A DNA stretch of 44,058 bases from a virus. A program made the position numbers and the translations under genes. The notes under the pieces were generated by a model. That model worked only from the letters and a program-made list of their open reading frames with translations. It searched no databases and was not told the origin of the DNA. Positions 8,132 through 43,248 of the stretch are shown in pieces; positions within the stretch are counted from its first letter, which is position 1; every line of letters starts with the position of its first letter. Where the stretch lies: positions 1-44,058 of IMG/VR virus record IMGVR_UViG_3300034064_001058. One strand, 5' to 3'.

Positions 8132-10240
8132 TCAATTTTTCAAGGATCTCTGTACTTCGTCTCGTAAATTTTTTGGCACAGACCGCAACGCTTCCCCATT
8201 TTTGGCAACGGCGAGTTTGCATAGCTCCAGTGTTCTCAATTCCTCCGGCACATATCTCAATGCAACACCATCTTGACTAATCGCATTTTTGCATATTTCC
8301 GGTGTTTTTAGATTTGTCGGCACATGTTCCAATGCCCTCCAGTTTTGTCTAACTGCAAGGGTACATAGCTCAGGTGTTCTCAGTCCTCTCGGCACATAGT
8401 ACAACGCATTCCAATTTTGTCTAATCGCGATTTTGCATAGCTCTGTATATTCCGGTAGGGTCTCTGGCACATAGTTCAACGCATCCTCATCTTCGGTAAC
8501 GGCGATTTTGCATAGCTCCGCTGTTCTCAATTCCTTCGGCACATAGTTCAATGCAACCCCATCTTCGGTAACGGCGATTTTGCATAGCTCTGGTGTTCTC
8601 AATTTCTCTGGCACATATTCCAACGCCATACCTTCTCGGCTAACCGCTAGTTTACATAGCTCAGGTGTTCTCATTTTCTCCGGTACATAGTTCAACGCAT
8701 TCTCATCTTCGGTAACCGCGAGTGTACATAGCTCAGGTGTTCTCAATTCCTTCGGCACATGTTCCAGTGCCTTCCAGTTTTGTCTAACCGCGAGTGTACA
8801 TAGCTCAGGTGTTCTCAATTCCTTCGGCACATGTTCCAGTGCCTTCCAGTTTTGTCTAACAGCAATTTTACTTAGCTCTGGATATCCAGGTAAAGTCTCT
8901 GGTACAATCATCAACGCATTACCATTTTGGGTAACCGCGATTTTACATAGCTCCGGTGTTCTTAATTTCTTCGGCACATTGCCTAACGCCATCCCATCTC
9001 GACTAACAGCAATTTTACATAGTTCCGGTGTTCTCAATCTCTCTGGCACATTCTTCAACTCATCACCATTTTGAGTAACTACTAATTTATATATCTCCGG
9101 TGTTCTCATTTTCTCCGGCACAAGCCTTAACGCATCACCATTTTGAGTAACGGCGATTTCGCATAACTCTGGGGTTCTCATTTCCAACGGCATATAGTAC
9201 AACGCCATCCCATTTTGAGTAACTGCTAATTTATATATCTCCGGTGTTCTCATTTTCTCCGGCACATATTCCAACGCCTTTCCATTTTTAGTAACCGCGA
9301 TTTTACATACCTCAGGTGTTCTTAATTCCTCCGGTATATCGGACAGAGACAAATCTCCTTGTGCGATAGCATTGGCAATATCTTCAGTGCTTGCACTTGA
9401 CGTAATTGCCTTTTTGATTCTGCTGTCATTGTAGACGTTTGGATTTATATTATAGGCTGGACTACCGGTATGCGGTTGTGATAATTCGCCTTCCAGTTGT
9501 TTCAGGTATTTCTTGAATTGAGCGTTGTTTTCACCATAATACGAGTCCAATCTATACATGTGATTGCCCTCTTTGTTCGTGTATGGTTGAAATGTTCCTC
9601 TTGCTATTTCTGCACCTGATTCCTTGTCCGTAAGGTAAGCAACCACTGTTCCGTGTTCTACTTCGTGGCATAAATAATGCCGATGTGATCCATCATTGAA
9701 ATTCTTACAAGAATGTTCTTCCCACGATTGTCCATGCGATGTTTGTCCTGCTACTCCAGTAGGGCTTCTGGTGATTCTCACCTGCCTCGATGCCGCTTTC
9801 GAAGATTGACCCTTCCTGAATGGATCAACCTTGAAAGCTGCTCGTAATTTTGGATCACTGATCGCACTACCTATTCTAATTTGCTTTCCTGACTTATCTT
9901 TTACCATTCCTTTCTTGTAATCATCTGGTGAAATAGGTATGCCGATATCTTGCTCAATCGCAGCGAGGACTTCCGACTTGCCATCCAAATCCACCAATGG
10001 ACGATAGATGTCCTCAATGTCATCACTGCCAAAGAAATGTTTGGTTGCCTGTGTGGCCTGAGGTGTTCTCTTTTTCCATTTAGCAACCTGTTCTTGTTCG
10101 GCAGGAGTGAGGTATTCATCCAATTGGCTCTCTTCATAGATTGCTTTACTGGTTTCCACGATGAATTCATGAAACAACCGATAAGCGGTTGTTTCATCGT
10201 TGTTCATCAGCGATTCGAAAATTTTGACAAAGTGTGACAT
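8132..10240 (-). CDS. DUF4116-repeat protein (702 aa)
   Basis: The first 300 residues are a unique domain with a Cys/His patch near 175-192 and a basic segment around 140-165. From about residue 300 there are 16 repeats of 24 residues on the plan LRTPELCKIAVTQNGxALxxVP plus a capping unit, as in the DUF4116 repeats of giant viruses, protists and intracellular bacteria. The solenoid probably binds other proteins. No sigma70 promoter precedes it; two overlapping TATTTATA elements (late type on this strand) lie 24 nt upstream, suggesting late expression, perhaps as a virion-associated or injected protein. The role is inference. Confidence 0.8.
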   Translation of the reverse strand: MSHFVKIFESLMNNDETTAYRLFHEFIVETSKAIYEESQLDEYLTPAEQEQVAKWKKRTPQATQATKHFFGSDDIEDIYRPLVDLDGKSEVLAAIEQDIGIPISPDDYKKGMVKDKSGKQIRIGSAISDPKLRAAFKVDPFRKGQSSKAASRQVRITRSPTGVAGQTSHGQSWEEHSCKNFNDGSHRHYLCHEVEHGTVVAYLTDKESGAEIARGTFQPYTNKEGNHMYRLDSYYGENNAQFKKYLKQLEGELSQPHTGSPAYNINPNVYNDSRIKKAITSSASTEDIANAIAQGDLSLSDIPEELRTPEVCKIAVTKNGKALEYVPEKMRTPEIYKLAVTQNGMALYYMPLEMRTPELCEIAVTQNGDALRLVPEKMRTPEIYKLVVTQNGDELKNVPERLRTPELCKIAVSRDGMALGNVPKKLRTPELCKIAVTQNGNALMIVPETLPGYPELSKIAVRQNWKALEHVPKELRTPELCTLAVRQNWKALEHVPKELRTPELCTLAVTEDENALNYVPEKMRTPELCKLAVSREGMALEYVPEKLRTPELCKIAVTEDGVALNYVPKELRTAELCKIAVTEDEDALNYVPETLPEYTELCKIAIRQNWNALYYVPRGLRTPELCTLAVRQNWRALEHVPTNLKTPEICKNAISQDGVALRYVPEELRTLELCKLAVAKNGEALRSVPKNLRDEVQRSLKN

Positions 10241-10459: not shown

Positions 10460-11737
10460 ATGGCTACTATAGCAAACAAAGCAGTTGCAGCAGATGCTCC
10501 GTTGTTGGATAAGGTCTGGTTGACCTTTGCATTTGGTATTTACACCGTATTCTACATTTGGGTACGTTGGTATGAAGGCGTTTACGGCTGGTCAGCGGGT
10601 CTTGACTCGTTCGCACCTGAGTTCGAAACCTACTGGATGAACTTCCTGTACACCGAAATCGTACTGGAAGTAACGACCGCCTCCATTCTGTGGGGCTACA
10701 TCTGGAAGAGCCGTGACCGCAACATGGCGGCAATGGCGCCACGTGAAGAACTGCGTCGCAACATGACCCACCTGATTTGGCTGTTCGCCTATGCAAACGC
10801 CATTTATTGGGGTGCTTCATATTTCACTGAGCAGGACGGCACCTGGCATCAGACGATCGTGCGTGACACCGACTTCACCCCGTCACACATCATCGAGTTC
10901 TACCTGACCTACCCGATCTACATCATCACCGGCTTTGCAGCGTTCCTGTATGCCAAGACCCGTCTGCCGCACTTCGCGGAAGGCCTGTCCTTGCCCTACC
11001 TGGTAACCGTTGTTGGTCCGTTCATGATTCTGCCTAACGTAGGTCTGAACGAGTGGGGTCACACTTTCTGGTTTCATCGTAAGCCACTTTAAACAGCAAT
11101 GTTTATCGAAAATCACTTTAATTGCTGGGATATCCCTCTGGGACAATCAGCAGCCAAGCTCAGAAATGAGAAGGTTCAACGACTAGCCGTAAGGCGTACT
11201 CCTAAGCAGGAGGAAATGGGTGAGATCCTAATGGGATCAAGATATAGTCTGATCTGCATGGTAACATGCAGCAGTCCGAATAGGACGGATAAGGAAGTAG
11301 CGAGCCTTGTTGAACATAATGTTATGGAAGAACTTTTTGTAGCACCGCTGCACTATGGATTTGTATTTTTCGGTCAACAATAATCGGCCGCTTCTTGCAG
11401 TAATGTGAGTCGAAAAACTCCTTTAATTGCTGGGACACCCCAATGGGGCAATCAGCAGCCAAGCTCAGAAATGAGAAGGTTCAACGACCAGAGCGAAAGC
11501 TCGTAGGATCAAGTGATCCGAAATGGGGAGCAACCAGAAATGGTTGAAGATATGGTCTGATCTACATGGCAACATGTAGCAGTCGAATCGACGATACAAG
11601 ATTAACGATCTTGTGTGAACATAATGTGGTTAGCACTAGCAATCGCTGGGGTATTGCTCCAAGTGTTTGCGAGTTTCGGTAACCTGATTGGTAATCAGAT
11701 CACTGAAGCAGTAGATAAAGGGCTGATTGCGAAGTAA
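10460..11737 (+). CDS. pmoC: Particulate methane monooxygenase subunit C, interrupted by two group I introns
   Basis: Coding sequence is join(10460..11072, 11322..11374, 11627..11737), 258 residues, the full PmoC core length. PmoC is a membrane subunit of the copper enzyme that oxidises methane to methanol. The spliced protein keeps D126, H130 and H143 (Cu-C site) and N197, H201 and H215 (Cu-D site), matching D156/H160/H173 and N227/H231/H245 of Methylococcus capsulatus. The ATG at 10460 is chosen over 10454 because AGAGGA stands at proper spacing. Without splicing, translation stops at 11092 after W204-F-H-R-K-P-L and loses H215 and the last helix. Exon 1 is richer in G+C and in CTG/CGT codons than its neighbours, as expected for a host-derived gene. 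No pmoA or pmoB is in the window. Confidence 0.96.
11073..11321 (+). ncRNA. Group I intron 1 in pmoC (249 nt)
   Basis: The exon ends in U (TGGT) and the intron in G (CATAATG). GCCA at 11083-11086 is the internal guide and pairs with exon UGGU, placing the diagnostic U-G wobble at the splice site. Core: P element around 11119-11130, Q around 11143-11155, R GTTCAACGACTA at 11174-11185 and S AAGATATAGTC at 11239-11249. P7 forms from GACTA and TAGTC. A GTAA-loop hairpin follows at 11254-11271. There is no open frame for an endonuclease inside. The insertion is within codon F205, between the Cu-D ligands H201 and H215. Confidence 0.93.
11375..11626 (+). ncRNA. Group I intron 2 in pmoC (252 nt)
   Basis: This is a homologue of intron 1 with the same ends. 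Exon CGGU pairs with guide GCCG at 11387-11390, again with U-G at the splice site. The core is at P 11423-11435, Q 11449-11460, R ending GACCA (11486-11490) and S AAGATATGGTC (11547-11557). Relative to intron 1, P7 has changed from a T-A to a C-G pair on both sides. The P9-region hairpin has changed a G-C pair to A-T and keeps a GNRA loop (GCAA). These paired changes show that both RNAs are under structural selection. The insertion is exactly between Gly and Trp codons. Confidence 0.93.
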
Positions 11738-11756
11738 TTCGTAGTCAACTTAAATG

Positions 11757-11780
11757 AAAAGGGCCTTCGGGCCCTTTTCT
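11757..11780 (+). terminator. Rho-independent terminator of pmoC
   Basis: A 9-bp stem (AAAAGGGCC with GGCCCTTTT) is capped by a TTCG tetraloop and followed by CTT, 19 nt after the pmoC stop. Confidence 0.92.
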
Positions 11781-12577
11781 TATGACGTTTTCTTTTGCTT
11801 CTTACATTGTTTACTGTTGTAGTGTTGACGTAAGTTTTGCTCGCCCTTCATTTCTCGTCTACACTCAATGCAGCAGAAAGACAGAAGAGTATTGCTTATT
11901 TTCTGCTTGACGTCTGCGTTTTTTGACACGTTATCTACTCCATATTTTTCAACGCAGGTCTTCATCGATTTTCTGCGAACCTCTGCAGATTGCATCGGAT
12001 AATCTACTCCAAGATTGATATTATTTGTGTCTCTTAACTTTGCTAGAATATCATCACACTTTAAATGATGATCTACGCCGTACTTTTTCACGCAGGTATC
12101 CTTTGCTTGTTTTCGATTATTGAAGGTTTCATCACCGTGATTTTTCAACCTGGTTGATTTCTGCCTTTTCTTCGCTAAGTCTGAGTTAACTGATTCTCTG
12201 TGTTTCTTTTTGATATCTGGTCTATGGATGATGTTATTCTCGCCATGGCCCCAACCCTGGCCCTCTTCGTCTTTTTCATTGGCCCATTGTTTGCTGTCGA
12301 CGATGTTCCAGAGTCGAGAATACAATCGGCCCCATGCTACAAGGGCATTGGTAGAATAGCACTTCTGCAAGATGTAAGTCTCGTGTTCAAACCCGTGCTT
12401 CCTTAAGTGCCTAGTCCAATGCACTCCTGAGCCATTGTATTTGAATGGATCACGGACAGTCTGTCCTAAATATTTTAGTCCTGTTTTCTTGTGAGTTTTG
12501 ACGTAAAGATAAATAATCACGCTGATGACCTCCGAAGTCGTTAGAGCCATTGGATGTTCTCGCATCGTGAATGGCAT
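11780..12577 (-). CDS. GIY-YIG homing endonuclease, free-standing (265 aa)
   Basis: The N-terminal catalytic fold shows YLYVKTHKKTGLKYLGQT, a GIY-YIG variant. Three repeats of the form TCVKKYGVDH / TCVEKYGVDN (DNA-binding modules of phage HNH/GIY nucleases) follow, then a C-terminal Cys2-His-Cys zinc finger (CCIEC...H...C). It sits convergent to pmoC within 50 nt, so it may once have mobilised the introns or the locus. The first 20 or so residues are read from the complement of a 64-bp pmoC-tail repeat (12521-12584). The start is uncertain: ATG 12577 lacks a ribosome site, though TATAAATA lies upstream. Confidence 0.85.
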   Translation of the reverse strand: MPFTMREHPMALTTSEVISVIIYLYVKTHKKTGLKYLGQTVRDPFKYNGSGVHWTRHLRKHGFEHETYILQKCYSTNALVAWGRLYSRLWNIVDSKQWANEKDEEGQGWGHGENNIIHRPDIKKKHRESVNSDLAKKRQKSTRLKNHGDETFNNRKQAKDTCVKKYGVDHHLKCDDILAKLRDTNNINLGVDYPMQSAEVRRKSMKTCVEKYGVDNVSKNADVKQKISNTLLSFCCIECRREMKGEQNLRQHYNSKQCKKQKKTS

Positions 12578-12584
12578 TTTTATT
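12521..12584. repeat. 64-bp direct repeat, copy 1
   Basis: It matches 12943-13006 with one mismatch. On the plus strand it reads as a tail following the broken pmoC copy; on the minus strand it encodes the N-terminus of the endonuclease. Confidence 0.95.
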
Positions 12585-12600: not shown

Positions 12601-12626
12601 TTAATTAAAATTCCGAGGTGTATATA

Positions 12627-12863
12627 ATGAATAATTTAATTGAACAACTATGTGAAAAAGCAACTATACAATCAGTATCTGAAAATTTTAACGGCGAGGA
12701 TAGTTTAACCATACAGACTCCTTCAAAAGAATGGGCAGAAAAGTTTGCTGAACTAATTATTAATCATTGTATTGAACTCGTTGAACCCGAAGATCAGGAA
12801 TACATGAATTCTTTACTCAAATTTAAAGTATGGTGTATTAAAACAGATTTTGGTATTAAATAA
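12627..12863 (+). CDS. Small protein of the MNExI...HFG family (78 aa)
   Basis: The ATG at 12627 follows a GAGGTG ribosome site; a GTG at 12618 is the alternative. The pattern MNNLIEQLCEKA ... WAEKFAELIINHCIEL ... DFGIK matches the minus-strand family at 16.9-18.7 kb, but this member lies on the plus strand between the two 64-bp repeats. Its A+T content is very high. Function is unknown. Confidence 0.65.
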   Translation: MNNLIEQLCEKATIQSVSENFNGEDSLTIQTPSKEWAEKFAELIINHCIELVEPEDQEYMNSLLKFKVWCIKTDFGIK

Positions 12864-12865
12864 AA

Positions 12866-13009
12866 TATGATTTTGTGGTGTTCGGGTGGATGGCACCAGC
12901 TATTGTCAGCGTTCTACTCCAGGTGTTTGATAGTTTTGGCAAGCTGATGACCTCCGAAGTCGTTAGAGCCATCGGATGTTCTCGCATCGTGAATGGCATT
13001 TTTATTTAG
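12866..13009 (+). pseudogene. Broken second pmoC copy (C-terminal 47 codons)
   Basis: The frame reads YDFVVFGWMAPAIVSVLLQ then VFDSFGKLM, aligning with YGFVFFGWLALAIAGVLLQ then VFASFGNLI of the intact gene. It begins where the middle exon would carry its last residues, has no start codon, and runs across the Gly-Trp junction that holds intron 2 in the intact copy. After about 34 codons it continues into the 64-bp repeat sequence with an unrelated end (IVNGIFI). Confidence 0.85.
12943..13006. repeat. 64-bp direct repeat, copy 2
   Basis: It matches 12521-12584 at 63 of 64 positions and forms the 3' end of the broken pmoC copy. Confidence 0.95.
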
Positions 13010-32149: not shown

Positions 32150-32965
32150 ATGTTTATTTATTACGTCTACAGACTTGTTCACAAAACATCAGGACAAGAA
32201 TATTTTGGTTCACGAAAAACTGCCCAGGTTGATCCGTATGATGATCTGGGAGTCAAATACTTCTCATCCTCAAAGATCGTCAAGGAAATCGGATTCGCCG
32301 AATTCTACCACGAAGTAGTCGCAGTCTACGACTCATTCACCGAATGCTACTGGGAAGAACAGCGACTCATTGAGTCAATCTTCAATTCTGGCAAATGCCT
32401 TAATCGATCGTTCTATCGTCAAACGGACAACTCGCGAGTTTTCTCAATGACCGGCAGAACTCAAACTCGTGAACACATCGAAAAACGTGCCGCCAGGCAA
32501 CGAGGCAAAATAACCAAACGAAAAGGCTTGCCTGAAACCTTGAAACATATGAAACGAATGACGGAAGCTAGGCTCAAGAAATATCCAGCTGGCGTCTTCA
32601 AGCATTCCGAAGAATCAAAAGAAAAGAATCGTCAAGCTCATATCGGAAGAAGAGACTCCGATGAAACAAAGCGGAAGAAAAGCAAATCTGCATCAGGCAA
32701 GCCTAAGTTCTGGCTTAAGGGGCGAACCCTGACGCCTGAACACATCCAACGAGGGAACGAGTCTCGCGCAAAAAACCGAGAAACTTGGTCACAGGAGAAG
32801 AAGGATGAGGTGGCAAAACAAATTTCAGACAAGCTCAAAGGAAAACCAAAAACATATCAGACCAACTGCGCGAAGAAGTTCATGTGTCGCATCACTGATA
32901 AGAAGGAGATGAGTAAAGCGACAGCGGCGTTATGCTTCAAGGACAACAAGAATGACTTCTGGTAG
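32150..32965 (+). CDS. GIY-YIG homing endonuclease with NUMOD3 motifs (271 aa)
   Basis: The N-terminus IYYVYRLVHKTSGQEYFGSR is the GIY-YIG motif; R near 57-62 and E near 75 follow as in the family. The middle and C-terminal parts are Lys/Arg-rich with NUMOD3-like DNA-binding segments (HSEESKEKNRQAHIGR, SGKPKFWLKGRTLTPEH). It is inserted, in opposite orientation, between the intact RNA ligase gene and a broken copy of that gene's 5' end. Confidence 0.88.
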   Translation: MFIYYVYRLVHKTSGQEYFGSRKTAQVDPYDDLGVKYFSSSKIVKEIGFAEFYHEVVAVYDSFTECYWEEQRLIESIFNSGKCLNRSFYRQTDNSRVFSMTGRTQTREHIEKRAARQRGKITKRKGLPETLKHMKRMTEARLKKYPAGVFKHSEESKEKNRQAHIGRRDSDETKRKKSKSASGKPKFWLKGRTLTPEHIQRGNESRAKNRETWSQEKKDEVAKQISDKLKGKPKTYQTNCAKKFMCRITDKKEMSKATAALCFKDNKNDFW

Positions 32966-38864: not shown

Positions 38865-39284
38865 CTATTTAGAATATTGATTATTTCCTTTTTTATTGTT
38901 TGATGGTTTACCTTTATTTGCTGTTCCGAGGGTATTACCGATCATCCTTCTACTATTCATTTTGCATGCTTCATCATATCCATACTTATCGATCATTCTA
39001 TCCCACGGACTTTTCCAAGTACCGTCATTTTTAGAGTCGAATATGTTTTCACTACGAGTACCCCAATATAGATGACGTGGGTTTGAGCATTTGTCATTGT
39101 GACAAGCATGACATAAATCGATGACTGGCTTAACACTCACTGGGATATTGGTATTGAGATACTCTGCCAATACGCCTTTATGCACAGTGCTATTACCTCC
39201 TCGTTCCACACATGACTCCGATAAGTCAAGATGCGCCTGTCTAACTGTTTTTTCTTCCTTGATCCATTCTTCTACTAACTTCAT
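38865..39284 (-). CDS. HNH endonuclease (139 aa)
   Basis: The HNH core is VIDLCHACHNDKCSNPRHLY (about 54-73) with cysteines for structural zinc. The tail has NUMOD3-like NKGKPSNNKKGNNQYS. It lies 5 nt from tRNA-Leu, a usual place for phage homing endonucleases. A DNA-cleaving role is likely; its site is unknown. Confidence 0.88.
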   Translation of the reverse strand: MKLVEEWIKEEKTVRQAHLDLSESCVERGGNSTVHKGVLAEYLNTNIPVSVKPVIDLCHACHNDKCSNPRHLYWGTRSENIFDSKNDGTWKSPWDRMIDKYGYDEACKMNSRRMIGNTLGTANKGKPSNNKKGNNQYSK

Positions 39285-42569: not shown

Positions 42570-42667
42570 AAATTGTTTTGGTGGGTCTTCTCCGATTCGA
42601 ACGGAGACTCTCAACCGTTATGAGCGGCGTGTTTTTACCCTTAAACTAAAGACCCCTAAAACAATTT
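42570..42667. repeat. 10-bp inverted repeat around tRNA-Met
   Basis: AAATTGTTTT at 42570-42579 and AAAACAATTT at 42658-42667 bracket the tRNA and would extend its acceptor helix in a precursor. Confidence 0.8.
42579..42655 (-). tRNA. tRNA-Met or tRNA-Ile2 (CAT)
   Basis: 77 nt with encoded CCA; acceptor GGGTCTT pairs with AAGACCC. Anticodon CAT in loop CTCATAA. The endonuclease stop codon TAG falls inside its first ten bases. Elongator Met or modified-C Ile cannot be told apart here. Confidence 0.88.
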
Positions 42668-43248
42668 TTTCTTATCTGCAATATTTCGTTTTCTTTAATT
42701 ATACGCAATTTCTTTGGAAATTGCAACCATTTTGCGCGATCTCTATCAGTCTCATATCCCTTCACCTCAATATACAAGTCCATTCCAGGAATGTAAAAGT
42801 CTGGATAATACGTTCGAATACCATTCCATTCATATTTAAATCCTTCTGTTGGCCTCTGTGGATTTAATCCATTTTCTTTTGCCCACAGGTAAAAGTCAAC
42901 TTCCCATTGGCCTTGTAACTTAATATTATCAATTATAATTTGCCTTGTTCTTCCTCTATTTCCTGAATTATATGCTTCCGGATATTCTACTACGGCACGT
43001 CTCATGGCAGCTCGATGATTATTTCTTCTTTCCTCGGTCCATATCTGTGCTGCGCTTGTAACACTAATTTTTTCTCTAGTTTCCTCGGACATTACTGCCC
43101 CATATGTGTATTGATTTGCGCCTTTTTTGCCAAGCATACCGTAGCTAGGTTTAACTATTATTCTGTCAGGATTACTCTTACACCTAATTTCGTGTTGCGT
43201 ATTTGCGTTTCTACTTTTAGTTTGTTTATCGCAATATTTACAATTCAT
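42646..43248 (-). CDS. Homing endonuclease with zinc finger and PD-(D/E)xK/Vsr-like nuclease domain (200 aa)
   Basis: The N-terminus has a C-x2-C ... H-x4-C finger (CKYC, HEIRC). NUMOD3-like segments follow (GKKGANQY, SEETREKIS). The C-terminal domain has WEVDFYLWAKENGL, then YYPDFYIPGMDLYIEVKGYE, a PD-(D/E)xK core. It begins next to a tRNA 5' fragment and ends inside tRNA-Met, so it is a tRNA-associated mobile gene. Confidence 0.88.
   Translation of the reverse strand: MNCKYCDKQTKSRNANTQHEIRCKSNPDRIIVKPSYGMLGKKGANQYTYGAVMSEETREKISVTSAAQIWTEERRNNHRAAMRRAVVEYPEAYNSGNRGRTRQIIIDNIKLQGQWEVDFYLWAKENGLNPQRPTEGFKYEWNGIRTYYPDFYIPGMDLYIEVKGYETDRDRAKWLQFPKKLRIIKENEILQIRKNCFRGL

Follow-up and report, generated by a model that had tools for sequence, protein, structure and literature searches.

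The pmoC gene of the viral contig analysed here (the window, which is the entire 44,058-base IMG/VR viral contig) is very probably a working gene that holds two group I introns of the self-splicing kind. Collaborative homing is the most likely way in which they have spread; the splicing, the cleavage and the protection are all inferred. Each intron is predicted to fold as a subgroup IA-like ribozyme whose guide would base-pair with the last bases of the preceding exon (P1, with a U.G at the cut) and with the first bases of the following one (P10); the exons would then be joined as the PmoC mRNA in two transesterification steps. Upon co-infection, a neighbouring free-standing endonuclease would cut the other phage's intronless pmoC close to the point of insertion, and repair would copy the intron, the 3′ exon and the endonuclease gene together; the intron would subsequently shield its own gene against cutting. 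The type of system, group I introns with a neighbouring endonuclease, is a known one; this example is notable for its gene, its number of sites, its micro-exons and the existence of a before/after pair. On a broader scale, we find it reasonably likely that homing has made a recurrent battlefield of the pmoC gene in methanotroph phages, in which ORF-less group I introns occupy at least eight conserved, mostly copper-site codons and are moved between phages by various free-standing endonucleases (several GIY-YIG types and an HNH) encoded beside the gene, and that the published 'fragmented' pmoC genes are intact genes with a spliced message.

Exons and joined reading frame of the window pmoC

10460 to 11072, plus strand: pmoC exon 1, residues 1-204 and base 1 of codon 205; contains D126, H130 and H143 (CuC) and N197 and H201 (CuD)
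11322 to 11374, plus strand: pmoC exon 2, 53 nt; CuD ligand H215 (M. capsulatus H245)
11627 to 11737, plus strand: pmoC exon 3, including the stop codon

The first-pass annotation of this DNA had joined three exons, with a 53-nt middle exon, into a full 258-residue PmoC, and this holds: segments 10460-11072, 11322-11374 and 11627-11737 add up to a frame of 777 nt (258 codons and the stop), free of internal stops, whose product matches the solved PmoC chains over its full length (phmmer, 3.5e-147). The unspliced frame meets a stop after 210 residues, and with intron 1 alone removed a stop is met at residue 224. All six copper ligands are found in the joined PmoC when it is aligned to the solved chains (CuC D126, H130 and H143; CuD N197, H201 and H215). 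Their M. capsulatus equivalents, obtained by adding 30 to the window residue number, are the CuC ligands D156, H160 and H173 and the CuD ligands N227, H231 and H245 (PMC12576850). Against pmoC of L018, an intron-carrying phage contig that has two intron sites in common with the window, dN/dS is 0.085 over the full coding sequence; downstream of intron 1, with 26 synonymous against 7 non-synonymous changes, it is 0.03, so that the 3′ exons are under purifying selection as protein.

The gene could alternatively be decaying, with introns that do not splice and either only a truncated N-terminal PmoC of about 210 residues or two fragments acting separately. The C-terminal piece is indeed less expressed in phage LR_6 (PMC7674155), and one of the L018 introns (intron A) lacks its terminal G. 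However, low C-terminal coverage is also to be expected where spliced reads are mapped strictly across short exons, the frame is exactly restored in every carrier, including relatives with one or four introns, and exons 2-3 are conserved as protein between two intron carriers (omega 0.03). Moreover, exons of 13-53 nt are too short for separate genes and a truncated protein would be devoid of the CuD ligand H215, which leaves the decay hypothesis barely tenable. The exact spliced junction of exons 1 and 2 of the window pmoC was not found in the IMG/VR scan, and therefore no spliced or uninvaded copy of this allele is on hand.

Ribozyme features of the two introns

11073 to 11321, plus strand: group I intron 1 (249 nt), without an ORF and, having both P7.1 and P7.2, subgroup IA-like; RF00028 86.6 bits
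11077 to 11086, plus strand: intron 1 guide region, with the P10 segment at 11077-11082 and the P1 guide GCCA at 11083-11086
11375 to 11626, plus strand: group I intron 2, 252 nt, ORF-less; RF00028 90.6 bits
11381 to 11390, plus strand: intron 2 guide region, with the P10 segment at 11381-11386 and the P1 guide GCCG at 11387-11390

A covariance-model search had been proposed as a check on the introns, and both pass it: their RF00028 scores of 86.6 and 90.6 bits exceed the cut-off of 50 bits, and the matches (11065-11271, 7.7e-21; 11365-11579, 4.8e-22) both cover the full model length. Besides these two, the Rfam search of the window returned tRNAs only. As the first-pass annotation had noticed, both introns start after an exon U and end in G, a terminal G being required of group I introns. 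The P1 helices are of 4 bp each (GCCA:UGGU and GCCG:CGGU, with the U.G at position -1) and P10 with the next exon is of 6 bp in each intron. The guides, each matched to its own exon with the U-G wobble, were thus described correctly, with one refinement: by means of a second wobble, the intron 2 guide GCCG is also able to base-pair with UGGU, the last bases of exon 1; the guides are therefore not strictly exclusive and exon skipping is conceivable. The two introns are 72% identical over their alignment, and between them P7 and P5 each covary from U-A to C-G while the P9-region stems are capped by GUAA and GCAA, in agreement with the covariation and the GNRA caps that had been reported for this pair.

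We then scored helices P2, P3, P4, P5, P6, P6a, P7, P7.1, P7.2, P8 and the P9-region stem over an alignment of 12 introns from phage pmoC genes, which includes close same-site relatives, so that the counts are of sequences and not of events. Helix cells were paired in 98.9% of cases and both sides had changed at 42 of the 55 pairs, a pairing level and a both-side count that none of 500 shuffles reached; with helix partners shifted by 1-3 columns, pairing was only 32-43%. Covariation in P7 is found at one pair, and P7.1 and P7.2 (helices 8 and 9) covary and are paired in all 12 introns. These two hairpins, located between P7 and P3′, are the mark of subgroup IA, and on this structural evidence the window introns appear to be subgroup IA-like. 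A P1 of 4-5 bp with the U.G is present in 12/12 introns, and a P10 of at least 3 bp in 10 of them. The RF00028 matches, the joined frame, the guides and the covariation all support the reading that two group I introns split this phage pmoC, as far as can be judged from sequence; there is no RNA evidence for the contig, and splicing in the cell is inferred.

Introns in other phage pmoC genes and in bacterial hosts

At least 101 further pmoC contigs are present among the IMG/VR matches listed, in some of which pmoC is truncated by the contig end, and introns were found in 11 of these 102 phage contigs, the window included (the ten other carriers are L018, L017, L160, L031, L032, L036, L062, L067, L068 and L324). 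The INPHARED phage collection had no pmoC match. The introns occupy at least eight distinct sites, after residues 43, 127, 200, 212 and 222 and within codons 203, 205 and 218, and all eight lie in conserved stretches of pmoC. Site 127 falls between the CuC ligands D126 and H130, and six of the eight sites are within 66 nt around the CuD ligands H201 and H215 (random-site probability of about 0.0005). The pmoC of L018 contains four introns, the exons between them measuring 13, 23 and 30 nt, and it still joins into an intact PmoC; with a 13-nt exon serving the P10 of one intron and the P1 of the next, it represents an extreme natural test of group I splicing. The closest relatives of these introns are same-site introns of different phages (88% identity between window intron 1 and L018 intron B, 82% between window intron 2 and L018 intron D).

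Two side observations concern L018. Its intron A (1540-1790), the first of the four, has A and not G as its last base, though P1 and P10 indicate that junction, and it may be a poor splicer or an assembly error. The same contig also has a fifth group I intron outside pmoC (8670-8874, locus L096), with an endonuclease-like ORF immediately upstream.

Introns could be retained because splicing regulates PmoC output, for example via the GTP level or ribosome traffic during infection, and it is known that a ribosome on the upstream exon aids the splicing of T4 group I introns (review PMC3984707). Carriers do keep up to four introns, but their patchy presence (11/102 contigs among the matches listed), the sites that differ between phages and the existence of intronless near-isogenic phages are as expected of mobile passengers, and we hold a regulatory role to be very unlikely.

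In regards to the origin of the introns, the host genome was considered as a source and rejected. No interrupted pmoC was seen in the 80 best bacterial pmoC loci of the GTDB genomes, none of 20 methanotroph genomes had a group I intron above the cut-off, and the five genomes with one among 201 sampled from the order did not have it in pmoC. Given that these bacterial pmoC loci are uninterrupted and these methanotroph genomes free of group I introns, the introns belong to the phage side. Three stretched pmoC loci (L225, L226 and L228; 1050-1088 nt), which are Methylococcaceae MAG contigs, were also rejected as intron carriers: they are intron-free and hold tandem pmoC copies that differ slightly.

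Endonuclease genes beside pmoC and their probable joint transfer with the introns

11780 to 12577, minus strand: free-standing homing endonuclease-like gene, 42 bp beyond the pmoC stop; PHROG and Pfam matches
11755 to 11780, no strand assigned: intergenic hairpin AAAAGGGCCTTCGGGCCCTTTTC, resembling a terminator on either strand, where the pmoC and endonuclease genes converge; read off the sequence itself

No endonuclease is encoded inside the window pmoC introns, whose 249 and 252 nt leave no space outside the core; the pmoC introns of the other phages are likewise too small for one. The protein of the neighbouring gene has a GIY-YIG-type N-terminus, a DUF7487 and a C-terminal C2H2 zinc finger, matches two PHROG families annotated 'homing endonuclease' (phrog_3339, 5.9e-13; phrog_12131, 1.6e-09) and PF24308 (2e-15), and is related to the pmoC-adjacent protein of L017 (5e-18). 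It has no match to the Pfam GIY-YIG model, and the pattern scan found no relatives of it. Its strand and helix order is that expected for GIY-YIG, and the best structural match is the catalytic domain of I-TevI, without significance; the AlphaFold model is too poor (pLDDT 49) to settle the fold. The product is a candidate for the cleavage of intronless pmoC, an activity that we infer.

An endonuclease-like gene adjoins pmoC in six of the seven intron lineages (window, L018, L031, L062/L067, L160 and L017), L036 being the one without. The distance to pmoC is 29 bp in L018, 17 bp in L031 and 19 and 15 bp in L062 and L067. The L018 neighbour is a clear GIY-YIG (PF01541, 4.8e-05; TIGR01453 group I intron endonuclease, 6e-21), L160 has an HNH-type endonuclease downstream of pmoC, and the L017 endonuclease gene, a weak call, is upstream of a pmoC whose intron lies close to the 5′ end. 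In the 13 intronless lineages none was recognised among the neighbouring ORFs examined, a few of which are without any known family. Endonuclease genes therefore adjoin pmoC in intron carriers only (6/7 against 0/13; Fisher p = 1.8e-4, or 0.0014 without the weak L017 call).

Two near-identical phages, L062 and L021, document what the arrival of an intron would look like. They are 99.0% identical over the upstream 2 kb, 99.7% in the 5′ exon as far as the insertion point itself, and 99.2% over 2.7 kb beyond the endonuclease, and only L062 has the intron and the endonuclease gene. Their 3′ exons differ at 19 of 138 bases (86.2% identity; p = 1e-16 against the flanks). The intron, the diverged 3′ exon and the endonuclease gene of L062 thus make up one acquired tract that begins at the insertion site, the outcome to be expected from a cut there followed by repair from a donor with all three. 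The single 5′ exon difference near the site, at position -3, is a base that pairs with the guide in L062 and that would mismatch in L021. L031 and L067 compared with L050 show a like pattern at lower identity. A near-isogenic intronless partner of the window was not found, and the evidence of a co-transferred tract comes from these related phages. The first-pass annotation had not gone as far as the eight sites, the genes with up to four introns, the adjacent free-standing endonuclease, the joint arrival of intron and endonuclease seen in this phage pair, or the 'fragmented' phage pmoC genes already in print without introns as their explanation (PMC7674155).

These observations bear on a further hypothesis, that the introns, though real, reach look-alike sites through reverse splicing of their RNA, and that the endonucleases encoded next to pmoC are unrelated passengers. 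The L017 site-43 intron is closest to L018 intron D at site 222 (82.6% identity), with the common guide GCCG and the same target CGGT|TGGT; different-site introns of one gene are also closely related (72% for the window pair), and L036 carries an intron without an adjacent endonuclease. However, the hypothesis does not account for endonuclease adjacency limited to intron carriers (p = 2e-4), and reverse splicing would not explain why the intron of the L062/L021 tract is accompanied by the endonuclease gene and by a 3′ exon that has diverged. We consider it unlikely as an explanation of the spread, though it may explain how new intron sites are founded.

Comparison with known systems and published 'fragmented' pmoC genes

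Collaborative homing, the preferred explanation here, has been described for the psbA intron of cyanophage S-PM2 and its free-standing endonuclease F-CphI (PMC6083498). Both cases combine an ORF-less group I intron, a host-derived energy-metabolism gene in a phage and an adjoining free-standing endonuclease gene, but the decisive feature, cutting of the intronless gene where the intron inserts, has been proven by experiment for psbA and is inferred for pmoC. They also differ in the number of introns (two in the window pmoC and four in a relative) and in the endonucleases, which are of GIY-YIG and HNH types beside pmoC and of Endo VII type beside psbA.

Several group I introns in a single phage protein gene are on record: Staphylococcus phage Twort orf142 has three, according to Landthaler and Shub 1999 as cited in PMC11878797. 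From what that citation conveys, exon skipping, which is conceivable in pmoC, is known in Twort, and orf142 is a non-metabolic tail tube protein gene, whereas pmoC relatives reach four introns and a 13-nt exon. Bastillevirinae have up to three group I introns per gene, with a small exon between introns as in pmoC, and many such phage introns were earlier classed as IA2 (PMC11878797). Theirs lie in polymerase, terminase, thymidylate synthase and ribonucleotide reductase genes and average 802 nt, in contrast to the ORF-less introns of 249-261 nt in the metabolic gene pmoC.

Chen et al. 2020 described 'fragmented' pmoC genes in the large freshwater phages TP6_1, BML_3, BML_4 and LR_6, with a stretch of 'unknown function' separating the pieces (PMC7674155); the word 'intron' does not occur in the text of that paper. 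As in the window, the phage pmoC is in pieces, but no intron was proposed there for these four genes. Splicing likely explains these four genes as well, by inference, given that those genomes were outside the sequences searched. A full-text search of the open literature, subscription papers being outside its scope, gave no relevant paper on pmoC with an intron. The published oddity, a pmoC whose pieces are kept apart by a low-transcript stretch that had no explanation, is then probably an ordinary intact gene, which would affect both which phages are counted as carriers of a functional pmoC and how pmoC transcripts should be mapped. The set of phages also offers a comparative case, near-isogenic before/after pair included, of collaborative homing repeatedly hitting one metabolic gene.

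Other features around the window pmoC

12866 to 12973, plus strand: decayed remnant of a second pmoC C-terminus, some 36 codons long (YDFVVFGWMAPAIVSVLLQVFDSFGKLMTSEVVRAI); no pmoC seen is more than 61% identical to it

This remnant may be a former 3′ end that stayed in place as the present pmoC arrived. The two copies of a 67-bp direct repeat (97%; 12518-12584 and 12940-13006) cover, respectively, the point where the endonuclease gene begins and the point where the pmoC remnant ends, and suggest that the endonuclease gene may have been joined onto a pmoC 3′ end by recombination. Between the endonuclease gene and the remnant, an 81-aa ORF (12621-12863) is 97.5% identical to positions 9409-9651 of L003, located 3.6 kb downstream of the L003 pmoC, with no match in the remaining flanks. 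Further endonuclease-like genes of the window are found at 32150-32965, 38865-39284 and 42646-43248 (homing endonuclease of phrog_314, HNH and resolvase-like, respectively). Immediately upstream of pmoC, and divergent from it, 8132-10240 encodes a 702-aa protein with at least nine DUF4116 repeats.
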